From Rhodospirillales bacterium (GTDB lineage Bacteria > Pseudomonadota > Alphaproteobacteria > JAJFIK01): a stretch of 37,460 nt of DNA. The notes beneath the pieces are model-generated. The model saw only the letters and a list, made by a program, of their open reading frames with translations, ran no database searches and had not been told where the DNA came from. The position numbers and the translations under genes were made by a program. Positions within the stretch are counted from its first letter, which is position 1, and each line of letters opens with the position of its first letter. Positions 8,907 through 17,034 of the stretch are shown piece by piece. Where the stretch lies: positions 1-37,460 of the forward strand of contig JAJFIK010000017.1 of the NCBI GenBank assembly GCA_021775005.1, given 5' to 3'.

Positions 8907-10340
8907 TCACCCCCAGATGGGTGGGCGCTTGTCGGCCCACGGCATTGCTTGTTCCAGCTGCCCGGCAAGGCGATAGAGCGTGCCTTCATCGCCATAGGCT
9001 CCCGTGAACATCATGCCGATGGGCAGGCCCTTGCTATCCCACGCCAGCGGCAGGGAAAGCGATGGTTGGCCGGTGAAATTGTAAGGCGGCGTAAAGGGGA
9101 ACGTCTTGGCTTGGTTGCGATCCACGGTGGCGGGGTCCTGGTTCACCGGATCGCAAAAGCCGATTTCAGGCACTGAGGTGCCGAGCACCGGGCAAAGCAT
9201 CACATCGACGTCCGTCCAGGTCTTGAGAATTTCGCGGTTCAGCACCCGCAAGGCGCGGTGACCGCGTCCCACATCGGCCGCCGTAAGGCGCGATTCAGAG
9301 CCCTTCCAATTACGCCAGGTCAGTGGCTCTAGCTCATGTTCTTCCGGCTCACGGCCCATGCGCGCCACCCGGTCCCGCATCGCCGCGGCAAAATTACCGC
9401 CGGAGACCGCGCGGCTTGCCGCATAAAGGTGGCGATAATTGATATTCAGCCCACGCTCCTCCACATGATGCCCAAGGCCTTCCAGCTCCTTCGCCACCTT
9501 TTCCACCGCACCGCGAATCTCAGGGTCAATAGGATCGCCGCTGGGAGTTTCCGTATAAAAGCCGATCTTGAGCTTGCCGGGATCGCGAGAGACTTCTTGC
9601 AGATAAGCGCGTTCCTTCCGAGGCGGCGCGTAAGGGCTGTCGGGTTCTGGGTTGCCGGTCCAATCGAGCATCGCGGCGCTGTCGCGCACGGTGCGGGAGA
9701 CCACATGATCAACAGAAAACCCGATGACACGATCTGCATCATCGGGCCCTTGAGGGTTGCGATCACGGGTGATCTTCATGCCCACAAGGCCGCAACAGGC
9801 GGCAGGAATACGAATGGAGCCCAACCCGTCAGAGGCGTGGGCGAGGGGAACAATACCCGCCGCCGTGGCGCCCGCCGCACCGCCCGATGATCCCCCCGTA
9901 ATATGATCGGTATTCCAAGGATTGCGGCAGGGGCCCAGCCGCGCGCTTTCCGTCGTCCCGGTAATGCCAAACTCCGGCGTGTTGGTTTTGCCAAGAAACA
10001 CCATACCGGAGTCCCGATATCGGGCGGCGAGGCGATTATCCTCCGTGTCCGGATCATTGGAATTAAAATGGGTGCCGTCGGTGCGCGGCATGCCGCGTAC
10101 CGTCACGCCAAGGTCTTTGATTAAAAATGGAACACCTTTGAACGGACCGTCCGGCAGCTCGCTAGCGGCCTGAGCACGGGCATCGGCATAAGCCTTGTAG
10201 ACCACCGCATTGAGGGCACCGTTGTGCTTCTCAATCCGGCCAATGGCTTCTTCGGTAAGCTCAGCGGGCGAGACGTCACCCTTTTTCACCAGAGCGGCCA
10301 ATCCAAGACCATCAAAATTGTCGTATTCCGCAAAGCCCAT
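8907..10340 (-). CDS. Amidase-signature family hydrolase (copy 1)
   Basis: Cytosolic Ser-cisSer-Lys amidase of 477 residues; substrate unknown. The triad is visible: Lys75 in PFLIKDLG, the cis-Ser in GGSSGG (149-154) and nucleophile Ser175 in GSIRIPA. The start at 10340 is set by GGGAGGA seven bases upstream. An in-frame ATG-less extension to 10460 has no ribosome site and no homology to its paralogue. It ends [15 protein letters not shown] clear paralogue lies at 14548-15936 on the same strand, with the TPR/TonB-C cassette between them. It is probably the first gene of an amidase-trmFO-VOC transcript. It could hydrolyse aryl or fatty amides; the sequence does not say which. Confidence 0.93.
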
Positions 10341-10477
10341 GCTCTCATCCTCCCAAGGTTTCCAAGAGCTTAGGCATTCTGACAGTTTGTCGTAAAGCCG
10401 TCTGAGCCCGAAACTTGACCAACCCGCGCGCTGGCGGGCACCATAGCGGATAAGTTGCACCAGGTTTGGGGGGGCTC

Positions 10478-11611
10478 ATGGGTCGATTTGTATTTGTTGC
10501 GGCATTTTTGATGTCACTCCAGCTGATCCCTGTAGCAGCTAATGCCTCAGTCACCAGCGATGTTTTTGCTGCTTACCAGGCCGCCTCAGAAGCGGGGGAT
10601 TACCGGGAAGCGCGCGACGCCTCGCGGCGGGCCTATAACGCAGCGCGCGACGCTTCCGGCGAGATGAGTTCTCAAGCACTCCAATTCGCAGCGGTCCATG
10701 CGAGCGTTCTGAATGATCTCTTGGCGTTTCGCGAGGCCGCAGACTTTTTAAGTCGCTATATAGAGGTCCCAAATACTGAATTTGCAGATCAACAAGTGCT
10801 GCCTTACCAGATTTATCTGCAAATGGGCCGGGCATTGTTGAGTTTGCGAGAAACGGACGAGGCACATGAGCTATTTCTAATGGCACTCAACGCGGCAATT
10901 GACCACCACGGCACCGCAAGTGTTGAGGCAGGATTGGCGCATCTGGAGTTAGCCAGGCCAGGTTGGAGCAACAGCACCACTATGACCGATCCAGCCCAAC
11001 TGCGCATGATCGGAACCGGGCAGTCTGCGCTGGCAGGCTCAATAGATTCGCTTGAAAGTGCAGAAAGAATATTCTCAAACCACCCTGATCGCCGCATTGA
11101 ACGCGCACTTCTCAAAGTCATGCGCGCAGGAAACTTTATGGCCAATGATGACCGAGACGGGGCCGAGCCCATACTCTTGAGTGCAATCGCTGATCTTGAA
11201 GATATCGGCTACATGGACGATTTTGTGCTCACGCTCTACATCAACTGGATCGAAATGCACTACGGCGAATGGTCTATTACACGCATACAGAATGGACTCA
11301 ATCATGCAATAGATTTGGCGCGCACCCGCGTCGAGGGAGATGCTCTTCCCGTCGTACGCAATATCCGCTACCGCCATCCGCGTGCGCGCTCCTTTACTTA
11401 CAGCGGAGTAATAACCGTCGAATACCGAGTAAATGAAGAGGGATTGATTCGGCGGACACGAGTTACCGATTCAACAGAGCCAGGGGTTTGGGACGAAGGC
11501 ATTCGAGCCATGGTGCGGGGATGGATTTACATTCCGGCACAAGAACGAGGGGAGCCTGTCGCCCGTGACGGCTTGACGACGCAATTTCAGTTAGATTTGG
11601 AACCGCGGTGA
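10478..11611 (+). CDS. Exported TPR-like protein with C-terminal TonB-C domain (cassette gene 1)
   Basis: Function unknown; 377 residues. A signal peptide covers about residues 1-24 (cleavage after ANA). A region of helical pairs rich in Ala/Tyr/Glu follows, resembling TPRs (for example AAYQAASEAGDYREAR and AYNAARDASGE). Residues about 292-377 match the TonB C-terminal fold: a TYSGVITVEYRVNEEG strand pair, DEGIRAMVRGWIYIPA, then GEPVARDG. There is no proline-rich linker and no retained N-terminal anchor as in classical TonB. The start is the ATG at 10478 preceded by a G-run; the TTG at 10466 lies inside that ribosome site. It overlaps the next gene by GTGA and is the first of four related genes. 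Confidence 0.85.
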   Translation: MGRFVFVAAFLMSLQLIPVAANASVTSDVFAAYQAASEAGDYREARDASRRAYNAARDASGEMSSQALQFAAVHASVLNDLLAFREAADFLSRYIEVPNTEFADQQVLPYQIYLQMGRALLSLRETDEAHELFLMALNAAIDHHGTASVEAGLAHLELARPGWSNSTTMTDPAQLRMIGTGQSALAGSIDSLESAERIFSNHPDRRIERALLKVMRAGNFMANDDRDGAEPILLSAIADLEDIGYMDDFVLTLYINWIEMHYGEWSITRIQNGLNHAIDLARTRVEGDALPVVRNIRYRHPRARSFTYSGVITVEYRVNEEGLIRRTRVTDSTEPGVWDEGIRAMVRGWIYIPAQERGEPVARDGLTTQFQLDLEPR

Positions 11612-11631
11612 TACGGATGGGTGGATCTGCT

Positions 11632-12834
11632 ATGGCGAAACTTTCACAGCTGTTCCTTGCCTTGGCCTTGGTAGCGCAATTCCTTGCCGCGCCAGTGCTC
11701 GCACAGGATAACGCAAAGACCGCTGGTTTTAATTCTGAAACCAGCTTTCCACCAGAACTTGACTCATTTCGTGACGACTACCTCTCCGCTCGCGAAATTT
11801 ATGGCGCCCAAAGCGCTGAGTTTGGTGAGGCGGCGCGGCGCTTTGGGAGCGAGCTTCTCAGAGTTCATGAGTACCGCAGCGCTGCGCAGGTTTACTGGGA
11901 GGCCATCGGGGCGATGGAGATGGCCGGAGCTACCGCTGACGAGTGGTATACGACTCTCATAAATGCAGCCCGCGCGGCGTCTCTTTCCAATGACTATCGG
12001 GTTGCTGATGGCTATGCGCAACAGGCATTGGGTGTTGCGCAGGACCGATATGGCGAAACCTCCAGAGAGGTCGCCATGGCTCACTATGAACTTGCCTATG
12101 TGCATCTCAGGCGCTCACCGGATGCGCTGGAAGGGTTTGGCCGCGTGCGTAATCAGGTCACATCGGAATCGCTCTTTATCAATCGCCAGGTCCGTGGAAC
12201 GTCCATTGAGGCACTTACAGACCTCATAGACCTGCACCTACGCTCTGCCGAGCGGATGCTTCGCGATGTCGGCCTGCGCGACACTATGGATTATGCATTG
12301 GTCCAAGCGCTCCGAGGACGATTCCACGCCGCGCGGCAAGACAATCTTCGCGCAGAGGAAGCTCTGGAAGCCGCGATTGCGCAACTTGAAACGCGCGGTT
12401 TTGTCGATGACGATTTGATTCACACTTATGCTGCTCTCATCCACGCCATGCAAAGTCGCTCTCTGCGTAACAGAGCGCGCGCCTGGCGCAGCCTCATTGA
12501 ACATGCCCGTGAGCAATCGCTGCGGCGCACCTATGGCGAATACATTCATGTTGCGCGCATAGATGCCGAAATGCCGCGCAATATTAGGGGTGGATTTTCC
12601 ATAGGAATAATTAGCTACCGTTTCGACATCTCAGCTGAGGGGCGGGTGGAAAACCTAGAGACGACGACATCAATCACAGATCAGACGGCATGGGCCGCAT
12701 CAACACGCGATGCGATGGAGGGCTTTGCTTTCGCCCCGCGCGTTCGCAATGGCATCGCTGAGGGGCTCCAGAATCAGGGCGTGGGATTTTCCATGTTCGC
12801 CTACAGATTCATGGTTGTTAGAGAGGCACGATGA
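11632..12834 (+). CDS. Exported TPR-like protein with divergent TonB-C domain (cassette gene 2)
   Basis: 400 residues, unknown function. Signal peptide MAKLSQLFLALALVAQF..., probable cleavage after VLA before QDN. The middle region has repeated helical hairpins (EYRSAAQVYWEAIGAM, DGYAQQALGVAQDRYGE, AEEALEAAIAQLETRG), consistent with TPRs. The last ~95 residues keep the TonB-C beta-beta-alpha-beta pattern (ISYRFDISAEGRVENLE, TRDAMEGFAFAPRVRNG, VGFSMFAYRFMVV) but lack the usual YP motif. GGTGGA lies six bases before the ATG at 11632. A GTG at 11608 overlapping the previous stop (GTGA) is an alternative start that only lengthens the signal peptide. It overlaps gene 3 by ATGA. Confidence 0.8.
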   Translation: MAKLSQLFLALALVAQFLAAPVLAQDNAKTAGFNSETSFPPELDSFRDDYLSAREIYGAQSAEFGEAARRFGSELLRVHEYRSAAQVYWEAIGAMEMAGATADEWYTTLINAARAASLSNDYRVADGYAQQALGVAQDRYGETSREVAMAHYELAYVHLRRSPDALEGFGRVRNQVTSESLFINRQVRGTSIEALTDLIDLHLRSAERMLRDVGLRDTMDYALVQALRGRFHAARQDNLRAEEALEAAIAQLETRGFVDDDLIHTYAALIHAMQSRSLRNRARAWRSLIEHAREQSLRRTYGEYIHVARIDAEMPRNIRGGFSIGIISYRFDISAEGRVENLETTTSITDQTAWAASTRDAMEGFAFAPRVRNGIAEGLQNQGVGFSMFAYRFMVVREAR

Positions 12835-14108
12835 TACAATTCAGGCAACTAATTTTGCCATTCGGTTTGGGCGCAAGTGCCGACCTTGTCCCGCTCCCCA
12901 TGGTCGTGCTCCTTTTTGGATTGATGCTCAATCCCGCCCATGCCTCCCAAGCTGAACTGCAGGCGGCCTATGGTGCCTACCAGGAAGCAGCCGAGGCGGG
13001 CGATGTACGCGCGGCACTGCCTCATGCACAGCGCGCCTATGAGTTGGGGCTGGAACTCTATGGGGCCGACAGTCGGAATACAGGGCTTTTGGCGTTTAAC
13101 TACGGCGCGGCGCTTAATGAGGTCCACAGATTTGAAGAAGCGTTACCCATTTTGGAAGAAGGGCAATTGGCATTGGAGGCCGCGGGTGGCAGCGAAGCAT
13201 CCTCGCTCTTTGATATGAATATCGAGATTGCGCGGAGCCATATGGGCATCTGGCATGGCCTCGACGCGCTTCCCTACTTGCGCGCGGCATTGCAACTTGC
13301 TCAAGCCGAATTTGGGCCGGAATCAATCGAGGTCGCACAATCGCATTATCTCATCGCCACTATACCGTTTCGGCAAAGGGGCGTGGATGAGTTCGGCGTG
13401 GTGGGGTACGTGCCGCGCATAAGTGGCGTCACTATAACAGAGCGTGCGCGCACAACCCAGGAACATAGGGAAATTGCCAGCCATTCGACGGCAAGGGGAT
13501 CAAGTTTTATGGCGTGGCTTGCTGAGCTGCGTGAGGTGCGTGCAGCCCATATCGAGCCTGCGGAGCAAATTCTGTCCACACATCCTGAAGCAGAGCTTGA
13601 GAATGCTAAACTGAGCCTCCTTTCCGCCATGTACGACATCGAGCTTGATGAGCGGAACCCGCATCCTCGATTTGCCGCAGCAATAGAAGCGCTGAATCAG
13701 CTGCACTATGCCGATATGATTACGTTTCGTCTGGCAGTAGATTGGCTAAGCCATCCTGATCGTCATACATGGTCACAACGTACCCTTGAGCACTATTGGG
13801 ATATCAGCATAGAGCATGGATACTACCGGCAAGAGGGCAACCATGTCTTTATGCTTCGTCTTCCGCCGAGTTATCCTAGAAGCGCGGCCGTTAGCGGCCA
13901 AGAGGCCAGAGTCTGCGTTCAGTTCAATCTCACCAACCGCGGACAGACTGAAGACATTGTGGTCTATGAATCCGAGGGGCTCAGAATTTTTAATCAATCC
14001 GCAGTAGAGGCAATCGAGAACTTCGTCACAGCCCCCAGAATTGAAAATAGAGTGCCCGTGCCCACAGCGGGTGTCCGAAACTGCTTTGATTACCAAATGC
14101 AACGTTAG
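12831..14108 (+). CDS. Exported TPR-like protein with TonB-C domain (cassette gene 3)
   Basis: 425 residues, unknown function. A long N-terminal hydrophobic stretch ends in NPAHA/SQAE, a likely signal peptidase site near residue 38. TPR-like helices follow: AAYGAYQEAAEAGDVRAAL, HAQRAYELGLELYGAD and EEALPILEEGQLALEAAG, closely matching the first repeats of gene 1. The C-terminal ~90 residues form a TonB-C domain: YPRSAAVSGQEARVCVQFNL, then SAVEAIENFVTAPRIENRVP, then NCFDYQMQR. Two cysteines in this domain, one in the VCVQF strand and one in the NCFDY strand, could form a periplasmic disulfide. It starts in an ATGA overlap with gene 2 and is followed 8 bases later by gene 4. Confidence 0.83.
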   Translation: MIQFRQLILPFGLGASADLVPLPMVVLLFGLMLNPAHASQAELQAAYGAYQEAAEAGDVRAALPHAQRAYELGLELYGADSRNTGLLAFNYGAALNEVHRFEEALPILEEGQLALEAAGGSEASSLFDMNIEIARSHMGIWHGLDALPYLRAALQLAQAEFGPESIEVAQSHYLIATIPFRQRGVDEFGVVGYVPRISGVTITERARTTQEHREIASHSTARGSSFMAWLAELREVRAAHIEPAEQILSTHPEAELENAKLSLLSAMYDIELDERNPHPRFAAAIEALNQLHYADMITFRLAVDWLSHPDRHTWSQRTLEHYWDISIEHGYYRQEGNHVFMLRLPPSYPRSAAVSGQEARVCVQFNLTNRGQTEDIVVYESEGLRIFNQSAVEAIENFVTAPRIENRVPVPTAGVRNCFDYQMQR

Positions 14109-14116
14109 AAACGGCC

Positions 14117-14509
14117 ATGGTTATGAAACAACAAATATTTAGATGCGCTGGAATACTCCTGGCGGCGGCCTTTATTTGCTTCCCACTCGCCTCAGCGACA
14201 ATGGCACAAACGGATGAGACGACTGAGGTTGCGCCGAGGTATCCTTCACCCACCACCCGCGCGATGCCCCAATATCCCTATTCCCTGCTCTCGCAAGGCA
14301 TCGAGGGCCGAGTCATGTTGGAATTTGATATCAACCGGCGCGGCCGACCCATGAACATCGAAGTTATCGAGTCAGAACCTCCTGGGGCGTTTGACAGAGT
14401 CGTCATAGATGCGCTGCGCCGCTTCCGATATGAACCAGTCTTGGAAGACGGGGAACCCGTAGTTTTTGAAAATGCTCGAAACGGTTTCGATTTTAGAATT
14501 CAGCGCTAG
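14117..14509 (+). CDS. Small exported stand-alone TonB-C domain protein (cassette gene 4)
   Basis: 130 residues. The signal peptide runs to about ATMA/QTDE (residues 30-31). The remainder is a single, best-conserved TonB C-terminal domain: QYPYSLLSQGIEGRVMLEFD, then NRRGRPMNIEVIESEPPG, FDRVVIDALRRFRYEP and EDGEPVVFE. It has neither the membrane anchor nor the proline-rich span needed for ExbBD-driven energy transduction, and no exbB or exbD is nearby. The start may be ATG 14117 or ATG 14123; neither has a strong ribosome site. Its TAG (14507-14509) overlaps the ancestral stop of the facing amidase gene. Role unknown; likely works with genes 1-3. Confidence 0.85.
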   Translation: MVMKQQIFRCAGILLAAAFICFPLASATMAQTDETTEVAPRYPSPTTRAMPQYPYSLLSQGIEGRVMLEFDINRRGRPMNIEVIESEPPGAFDRVVIDALRRFRYEPVLEDGEPVVFENARNGFDFRIQR

Positions 14510-14547: not shown

Positions 14548-15936
14548 TTAATCAAGCTGCCCGGCATGGCGCAGCAGCATGTCCTCGCGGCCTAAGTCGG
14601 CGGTGAACATAATGCCCAGGGGCAGCCCGGCATCATCATGGTGGAGCGGCAATGATATGGATGGATTGCCTGTGGCATTGAACAGCGGCGTGAAGGGCAG
14701 ATAATCCAGCAACGGTTCAAAGGCCTTTTCCACATCACCTTCGCCGGTTGAGAATTGCCCCACCTTGGCAACCGGCTGGCCCAGTGTGGGCGTTAGCAAC
14801 AAATCATACCCTTGGAAGAAGGCACCAATGGCGCGCCCTGTGATTTGCAATATCATCATAGATTGTTGGTATTGCCCGCCGGTCAGCGTCTTGCCAGCTT
14901 CATAAAGCCCCCAGGTCATGGGCTCAAAATCCTGCTGCCGAAGCTCGCGGCCGGTCATGAATGCCAAGGTATCAAGCAGCGCCGTTGCACTTGCCGCCCA
15001 AATCGCTGTGAAGGCCGGTTGGAACATGGCGAAGTCCACCCTCTCAAGCGCGACCGGTTCAACTTTGTGGCCGAGGCTTTCAAGCAGTTTCGCCGTTGCT
15101 TCAGTTGCCGACACCATTTGCGCATCAACCGGTTCGCCCGTGCGCATGTTGTTGGTGAACATGCCGATTTTCAGACTGCCCGGGTCGGTCTGTGACTCCT
15201 TCAGATAACTTTCCGCTTGAGGCGGCGCGAAATAAGGGTCGCCCACTTCCGGCCCCGCCGTGCAATCAAGCATGGCAGCTGTATCGCGCACGGTGCGAGA
15301 GACCACATGTTCTTCGGCAAGGCCGCTCATGGCGTCGCCAACAATGGGGCCTTTAGGATTTCGTTGCCGGCTTGGCTTAAGGCCCACCAAGCCACTGCTT
15401 GCGGCGGGGATACGAATTGATCCGCCACCATCATTAGCATGGGCGAGGGGCACACAGCCCGCCGCCACCATGGACGCCGAACCCCCTGAGGATCCGCCCG
15501 GAGTGTAGTCCGGATTCCAGGGGTTGCGGCAGGGGCCATAGGCAATGGACTCGGTGACCGGCATAGAGCCGATCTCCGGCACATTGGTTTTGCCCAGGGG
15601 AATGCAACCAGCATTCATGAAGCGCTGCGTCAGGGTAGAGGTCACCGGGGCAGGGATGCCTTGCATGAACCGCGTGCCTTGGGTCGTGGGCCAGCCTTCG
15701 CGATCCCCCATGATGTCTTTGAGCAAAAACGGCACACCGGCGAAAGGCCCATTGGCAACGCCATTTTTCGCTTCATCACGGGCCTGATCAAAGGCGCTGA
15801 AAATGACAGCATTCAAAGCGGGATTGTGTTTCTCAATCCGCGATATGGCGGCATCCACCAGCTCAAGTGGTGTCACATCTTTGTTGCGCACCAATTCGCC
15901 CATGCCAAGGCCGTCGTAATCCTGATAGTTGTCCAA
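14548..15936 (-). CDS. Amidase-signature family hydrolase (copy 2), C-terminus lost to a nonsense codon
   Basis: 462 residues, paralogous to the amidase at 8907-10340. The triad is intact: Lys73 in [14 protein letters not shown] at 147-152 and Ser173 in GSIRIPA. GGGAG seven bases upstream supports the TTG at 15936 as start, aligning with the paralogue's start; a GTG at 15957 is possible. The protein stops at HAGQLD, but the same frame continues past the TAA as AAPCIDRKPAIWG and then TAG, matching the paralogue's end [14 protein letters not shown]. The TAA occupies the codon of a Gln (CAA). The catalytic core is complete, so activity may survive the loss of 14 residues. Confidence 0.9.
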
Positions 15937-16071
15937 TGCGAATCTCCCGTATTTCACGCCCGATTTTGCACGTCTGACGGAAAGTCACAATCCGCCGGAA
16001 ACGTGTGCTGGGTTGTGAGCCGACCATGAGTCGCGTAGCCTGATTGGCGAAACTTGAGGGGAATCATTCTT

Positions 16072-17034
16072 ATGAGCGATCGAATAACTGTCAGTTCAAC
16101 CATCGGCGAAGCGTTCAATTTTGCCTTTGGGAATATTAGTGCGGTGTTTCGTATTGGCTGGTTTCCAGTGAGCCTGATGATGGCTTTGCTCGCTTTGATC
16201 GGCTGGATCTTCTTTCAGCCGATTATCATGGTCTATGGTGAACTCCTCACCAACATAGATGCAATGTCCGATGCTGATGCACTGACCCAGATTTTGGCAC
16301 AGTACAATGAGAATATGCTCGCGGCGGTGGAGTCTATCGGATACCAGACGGTTTCGCTCGGTTACTTGCTTTTTCTTGTGGTGGGACTAGCCGGTTCGGC
16401 CATCCCCATGACCGCCTATTCACGCATGATTGTGAATGGTGATCGCTATAGAGGACTGATCTATTTTCAGTTTGGCGGGCGAGAAGTCTCAGTCGCTATA
16501 ACGTACTTCGCGGTAACGGTTCTCGTCACCATAATCTATATTGCCGCGGTCCTCGTTGCGGGAATTGTAGTGGGCATTGTCGGGGCCATTGCCGCAGCAG
16601 CATTGGGGGATGCAGGAACCGCTGTGTTAGGATTGCTAATCATTGGCACGGTAATTGTAGCGATGATCTTTATGCTTTGGCTCTTTGCCCGGCTCCTTAT
16701 CGCAATCCCCGCCTCAGCAATCGAAGGGGGTGCCCCCATTGGTAAGGCCTGGACCATGACGAAAGGCCATGGCGCGACCCTGACGCTCGCACTGTTGCTG
16801 GGATACATCCTCCTGATCTTTGTATGGATCGTCTTCTTTGTGGCGCTGGACTATGTGGTGGACGCCATCAGCATGGTCCTCGGCGACCCGGGTTCACAGC
16901 TCGGCATGTACGTCACAATGGCGCTTGGTGCAGTGGCCTATGTGGCCATGGTTTGCGTCGGGAATGCCTTCTTCATTGGGTTATTTGCTGGACCCTATAA
17001 GCGCCTGACAGCGGGCGACCCAAGCCCACAATAG
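16072..17034 (+). CDS. Multispanning membrane protein, GPDPase membrane-domain-like
   Basis: About 320 residues with six or more hydrophobic helices. There are two spans in the first ~60 and ~110 residues, then two adjacent long spans rich in Val/Ile/Ala (about 150-215), then two to three more near the C-terminus. The loop IAIPASAIEGGAPIGKAWTMTKG resembles the conserved loop of the membrane domain found with glycerophosphodiester phosphodiesterases and in orphan alphaproteobacterial proteins. No catalytic domain is attached. I choose the ATG at 16072 (GAGGGG upstream) over the TTG at 16054. It converges on uvrA with a single base between stop codons. Function unknown. Confidence 0.75.
   Translation: MSDRITVSSTIGEAFNFAFGNISAVFRIGWFPVSLMMALLALIGWIFFQPIIMVYGELLTNIDAMSDADALTQILAQYNENMLAAVESIGYQTVSLGYLLFLVVGLAGSAIPMTAYSRMIVNGDRYRGLIYFQFGGREVSVAITYFAVTVLVTIIYIAAVLVAGIVVGIVGAIAAAALGDAGTAVLGLLIIGTVIVAMIFMLWLFARLLIAIPASAIEGGAPIGKAWTMTKGHGATLTLALLLGYILLIFVWIVFFVALDYVVDAISMVLGDPGSQLGMYVTMALGAVAYVAMVCVGNAFFIGLFAGPYKRLTAGDPSPQ

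Follow-up and report, generated by a model that had tools for sequence, protein, structure and literature searches.

Four consecutive genes at positions 10478-14509 of the window (the whole stretch of 37,460 nucleotides analyzed here) encode proteins with an N-terminal signal peptide and a C-terminal TonB domain (TonB-C), and in the first three of them a TPR region lies in between. The parts of these proteins are known and their architecture is recurrent and annotated; the variant is the placement of TonB-C in TPR proteins that are not anchored in the membrane. The cassette in the window, which diverges rapidly and has a bare fourth domain, is one of many such cases. A TonB-C domain is commonly taken for the terminal part of a rod that transduces energy, and the protein that carries it is labelled 'energy transducer TonB' or 'TonB family protein'. 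For a recurrent family of exported TPR-TonB_C proteins with neither anchor nor motor, such annotation can mislead.

Gene layout and domain content

All four genes are open reading frames on the forward strand. Gene g1 (10478-11611) consists of a signal peptide, a TPR-like region and a C-terminal TonB_C domain (11381-11587). It is followed by g2 (11608-12834), with a signal peptide, a TPR solenoid and a strongly diverged TonB_C domain (12604-12756), and by g3 (12831-14108), with a signal peptide, TPR and TonB_C (13866-14072). The last gene, g4 (14117-14509), lacks the TPR part and encodes a signal peptide and a bare TonB_C domain (14267-14497). The first-pass annotation had described four consecutive genes with signal peptides at these positions, and both the reading frames and the N-termini bear this out. 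It had also described the genes as joined by GTGA and ATGA overlaps and an 8-base gap. The g2 stop is indeed overlapped by the g3 start (ATGA) and 8 bases separate g3 from g4, but the GTGA overlap of g1 with g2 is doubtful. It is because an in-frame ATG at 11632, with GGTGGA upstream, gives a better signal peptide than the GTG at 11608 and appears to be the likelier start of g2. Thus, the gap between g1 and g2 may be about 20 bases, with no overlap.

Amidase genes flank the cassette on both sides, on the strand opposite to g1-g4. The left amidase (8907-10340, reverse strand) borders the variable site and is 77 % identical in both congeners; its start was set by alignment with congener G002, in which the match begins at residue 41. 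The right amidase (14548-15957, reverse strand) is 73-75 % identical in the congeners. The intergenic region from the divergent amidase start to g1 (10341-10477) is presumed to hold the cassette promoter. The region upstream of the cassette is poorly conserved between the congeners, and a simple scan gave no sigma-70-like match upstream of g1 and no convincing promoter or terminator in the cassette. No Rfam match was found inside the cassette. A multi-pass membrane protein (16054-17034) that adjoins the cassette has no Pfam match and is itself fast-evolving (44 % and 31 % identity to the congeners; congener loci L026, 14212-16270, and L036, 7921-8862); in congener G001 it is represented by two neighbouring genes.

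When the four proteins were searched with PF03544 (TonB_C; Pfam cut-off 24.6 bits), g4 (59.5 bits) and g3 (45.7 bits) passed. The g1 match was marginal, at 21.8 bits in hmmscan (under the cut-off) and 25.2 bits in the genome search, and g2 reached 14.5 bits at 12604-12756, under the cut-off. Profile comparison with hhalign against a TonB/TPR-TonB_C profile gave a probability of 96.5 % for g1 and of 62.8 % (E = 7e-5, 75 columns) for the last 97 residues of g2; a TPR stretch of g2, used as a negative control, gave 0.2 %. In the AF2 model of g2 (mean pLDDT 78), a helical solenoid at residues 49-305 is followed at residues 330-399 by a C-terminal beta-beta-alpha-beta domain. The model of g3 (pLDDT 70) is built alike, a solenoid with a beta-beta-alpha-beta tail. 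Structure prediction had been put forward as a check of the TonB-C fold, and both models agree with it. The 50 matches listed by Foldseek for the g2 model were all TPR proteins, including kinesin light chain and BtubC, since the solenoid dominates the model; the structure search thus did not confirm the TonB-C tail. From the genome HMM match, the profile comparison and the AF2 model, we concluded that the C-terminal domain of g2 is a diverged relative of TonB-C, so that a TonB-C domain is present in all four proteins, as first proposed.

TPR repeats in three genes and a bare domain in the last had likewise been read correctly. The TPR_12 model was passed by g3 (43.8 bits), and the TPR assignment of g1 and g2 is based on homology and the model. 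All three match the full TPR + TonB_C profile, which was built partly from them; a BLASTP comparison of the window with members from other families, independent of the profile, supports g1 and g3.

Against the PDB, the top match of the family profile was Vibrio TonB2 (2k9k), with Pseudomonas TonB (6fip, 6i97) close behind and E. coli TonB lower. The top matches of g4 were TonB C-terminal domains, and g4 alone retrieved E. coli TonB. Across the family, mean pairwise identity was 29 % in the TonB-C part versus 19 % in the TPR part, and the TonB-C part was the more similar one in 252 of 276 pairs. In addition, the TonB-C parts of the family mostly retain YP and RYxP, the motifs seen in true TonB domains. 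This conservation suggests that binding of a partner strand is retained. The YP motif is lost in g1 and g2, so the copies need not all bind alike.

Two further matches were noted on the way. The third gene of an array in genome G664 (L124, 10538-11641) has kept its length while its TonB-C domain is unrecognised by Pfam, which parallels the diverged g2. A weak partial TonB_C match (16 bits) lies in a 79-residue frame close to a contig end (L005, G000:C42:325-432) in the genome of the window.

Membrane anchor, motor and the Ton system of the genome

The N-termini of g1-g4 all fit a signal peptide of the cleavable type, as judged by simple rules and not by a trained predictor, and the proteins would presumably be cleaved. 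No later hydrophobic segment was found after residue 60 in g1-g4 (19-residue mean KD at most 1.06), and the maximum number of prolines per 40 residues was 3-6 in the cassette proteins, compared with 9-11 in true TonBs. The same picture was obtained for 25 family members: each has an N-terminal hydrophobic stretch, mostly followed by an AxA-type site, and none has a later hydrophobic segment. In five true TonBs the hydrophobic stretch spanned at least 19 residues, was not followed by an AxA site and was accompanied by a Pro-rich span. No histidine signature of motor binding was seen within the N-terminal hydrophobic stretch of g1-g4; nor does it stand out in the TonB of the genus itself.

A TonB transducer is expected to have an uncleaved helix with a motor-binding motif, a proline-rich span and co-encoded ExbB/ExbD, and none of these was recognised in the cassette. 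Comparison with this genome's own copies found no relative of ExbB, ExbD or a TonB receptor in the window, although four TonB-dependent receptors are encoded in the genome. The first-pass annotation had seen no anchor, proline-rich span, ExbBD or neighbouring receptor, and in g1-g4 and the window none was detected. The cassette is not part of a tonB2 operon. An operon of that type lies on another contig (C35) of the same genome, where the order (L027, 3493-8666) is ExbB-like, ExbB, ExbD, ExbD, a normal anchored TonB and a TPR gene, arranged like the Vibrio TonB2 system. Thus, as an ordinary TonB2-type system is encoded elsewhere, the cassette is not the TonB of the cell. Two ExbD genes in a row are also found in congeners G001 and G002. 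We also considered whether the TPR part of the family derives from TtpD of TonB2 operons; no specific similarity was found.

Homologues routinely encoded as ordinary TonB beside ExbBD had been named as a finding that would count against a free periplasmic assembly. ExbB/ExbD were found beside none of the 21 family loci tested and at all five true TonB control loci, so this objection does not apply. In G664 and G765 the contig with the cassette amounts to an entire or almost entire chromosome, and the distance from the cassette to the closest ExbD is >170 kb in G664 and about 950 kb in G765. Among the loci examined, only L125 and L130 have a TonB receptor within a few genes, which we provisionally judged unremarkable.

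Distribution of the family and history of the site

Four tandem genes with the same architecture were found in a metagenome-assembled genome of another alphaproteobacterial family (JANQQJ010000034, IP29b_bin.24). When the survey was extended to the phylum, full-length relatives were observed in several families and in another class; in Gammaproteobacteria they are single genes, such as WP_152441902.1 of Pseudoalteromonas sp. THAF3, annotated as 'TonB family protein'. Of 80 genomes sampled from one further alphaproteobacterial order, 23 had a match over both parts and nine had at least two tandem copies. Both figures were counted from the match table; eight tandem loci were then read and the arrays confirmed. 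The array of G765 consists of four consecutive genes with the last one shortened, and the number of genes per locus varies between 1, 2, 3 and 4. Exported TPR-TonB_C proteins are therefore fairly common in Alphaproteobacteria and Gammaproteobacteria. Some arrays contain broken or truncated copies (L150, 2378-3525; L152, 5769-6029; L081 in G390), and copies may often be gained and decay again. Within the literature library searched, no publication on TPR-TonB_C proteins or their function turned up, and no experiment on any member.

Among the congeners, G001 carries three TPR-TonB_C genes in the corresponding position, with the same genes on either side, and lacks the bare fourth gene. In G002 only 57 bp separate the two amidases and there is no cassette, while the order of secD, secF, trmFO, both amidases, the membrane protein and uvrA is kept. 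The idea of a special, undescribed four-gene system is not supported, as the architecture is widespread and already annotated, the number of genes runs from one to four, the cassette of G001 has no bare gene and G002 does without the cassette. G002 retains TonB, ExbD and four TonB-dependent receptors, so the Ton system itself does not depend on the cassette.

The cassette proteins are 25-36 % identical between the carriers, in comparison with about 68-86 % for most flanking genes (the membrane protein, with its lower identity, is the exception), and the GC3 of the cassette is 0.53-0.56 versus 0.61-0.67. The cassette is fast-evolving and dispensable. In the phylogenetic tree, the window and congener genes group together (support 98/97). 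A clear orthologue in G001 was observed for g1 (G1p1, 36 % identity), and the orthology of g2 and g3 is less certain. The cassette consists of duplicated copies of one architecture, in line with the duplication first suggested. A gradient from divergent (g2) to canonical (g4) copies had been proposed as well, but the genes do not form an ordered series: g1 has its clear orthologue, g2 is the longest branch and the domain of g4 resembles a true TonB.

SecD and amidase 1 are more similar between G001 and G002 than between either of them and the genome of the window (G000); the other genes do not resolve the branching. A recent gain in the window lineage is disfavoured, since G000 and G001 share the site and the cassette while G001 groups with G002. 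Loss in G002 is simpler than gain, and the cassette is probably ancestral and was lost in G002, with the branching resting on few genes.

Possible role and comparison with known systems

We consider the chances about even that the cassette is an operon of tandem, rapidly evolving paralogues that act as soluble periplasmic adaptors and bind partners through a TonB2-like domain and a TPR region. A signal peptide would direct the export of each protein and then be cleaved off. At the C-terminus, the TonB2-like domain would bind an extended peptide of an envelope partner by beta-strand addition, as TonB does with the TonB box, and the TPR solenoid of g1-g3 would hold a second partner. Without an anchor or an ExbBD-binding helix the proteins could not pull, which points to a role as accessory binders, probably around the TonB2-type system of the chromosome or outer-membrane proteins. 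A second surface in the TPR part, together with no contact to the motor, makes a soluble periplasmic adaptor the best fit. TonB is known to bind the TonB box by beta augmentation (PMC11658791). In Vibrio vulnificus, TonB2-dependent transport and siderophore uptake require TtpD2, a TPR protein whose gene lies next to that of TonB2 (PMC6957404). The most reasonable reading of TonB-C in these proteins is a putative binding module. The domain is what suggests a link of the cassette to the Ton system, and we infer cleavage, localisation, co-transcription, strand addition, the identity of the partners and the connection with iron or nutrient uptake in the same conditional sense.

Among the alternatives, self-assembly is the strongest, although we regard it as unlikely. 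In this case, TonB-C domains would serve only to pair the paralogues, by domain swap or strand addition, and the resulting TPR scaffold would have nothing to do with receptors. Crystals of TonB C-terminal domains can contain strand-exchanged dimers, and co-oriented, partly overlapping tandem paralogues, with tandem arrays recurring elsewhere, would suit such a scaffold. However, single-copy relatives in other genomes and in another class imply that a paralogous partner is not required, and a copy number of 1 to 4 also speaks against it.

Somewhat less probable is titration, in which soluble TonB-C proteins occupy TonB boxes or TonB and so damp receptor-mediated uptake. The bare exported domain of g4 would be the simplest possible competitor, and soluble TonB fragments without the membrane helix do bind FhuA and BtuB (PMC11658791). 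But titration leaves the TPR part unexplained, g1 and g2 are without the YP motif, and the cassette of G001 has no bare domain.

A little further down we place a more specific form of the adaptor reading, in which the paralogues are receptor-specific, unanchored adaptors, each recognising a different outer-membrane receptor or envelope partner and coupling it through its TPR part to the one energised TonB2-type machine. We think it improbable; if true, it would be a form of indirect TonB coupling not described so far.

More doubtful still are true TonB-like transducers, with the signal sequence as the anchor, the TPR part in place of the proline-rich span and ExbB/ExbD borrowed from elsewhere. 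Such genes do exist elsewhere in the genome and every member has an N-terminal hydrophobic segment, but in most members an AxA site follows this segment, which is absent from the true TonBs of the same genus. The window genes also have no histidine signature, none of the tested loci has ExbBD beside it, and the short g4 protein could not reach across the periplasm. The least probable reading is that of drifting duplicates without an important function: the 25-36 % congener identity, the lower GC3 and the clean absence in G002 would fit, yet the frames have stayed open and the architecture and signal peptides persist in spite of the divergence, tandem arrays occur in several families and the family is present in many genomes.

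Under the reading as soluble adaptors, TPR-TonB_C proteins become accessory components of outer-membrane transport that can be put to the test, which would matter most if they modulate the contact between receptor and TonB.

The closest known proteins are the relatives annotated as 'TonB family protein' (WP_152441902.1; L124 in G664; L067/L091 in G340; L148 in G765). They have the same length as the cassette proteins (~360-420 aa) and share with them the signal peptide, the TPR part, the C-terminal TonB_C domain and a neighbourhood without ExbBD, and several lie in arrays of 2-4. Their identity to the window genes is only about 20-33 %, and, in contrast to the window, a bare TonB-C gene is absent from the examined arrays, although the fourth copy in G765 is shorter. 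The N-terminal part resembles kinesin-light-chain-type TPR solenoids (KLC, BtubC) in fold by Foldseek and HMM, from which no function is inferred. The C-terminal domain of classical TonB (E. coli, Pseudomonas) is matched in the cassette by sequence, whereas its uncleaved helix, proline-rich span and ExbBD neighbours have no counterpart there. The Vibrio TonB2-TtpC/TtpD system resembles the cassette in combining a TonB2-like C-terminal domain with a TPR partner. In that system, TonB is anchored, Pro-rich and accompanied by ExbB/ExbD, and the TPR protein is separate; in the cassette, TPR and TonB-C make up a single unanchored protein that is encoded on its own.
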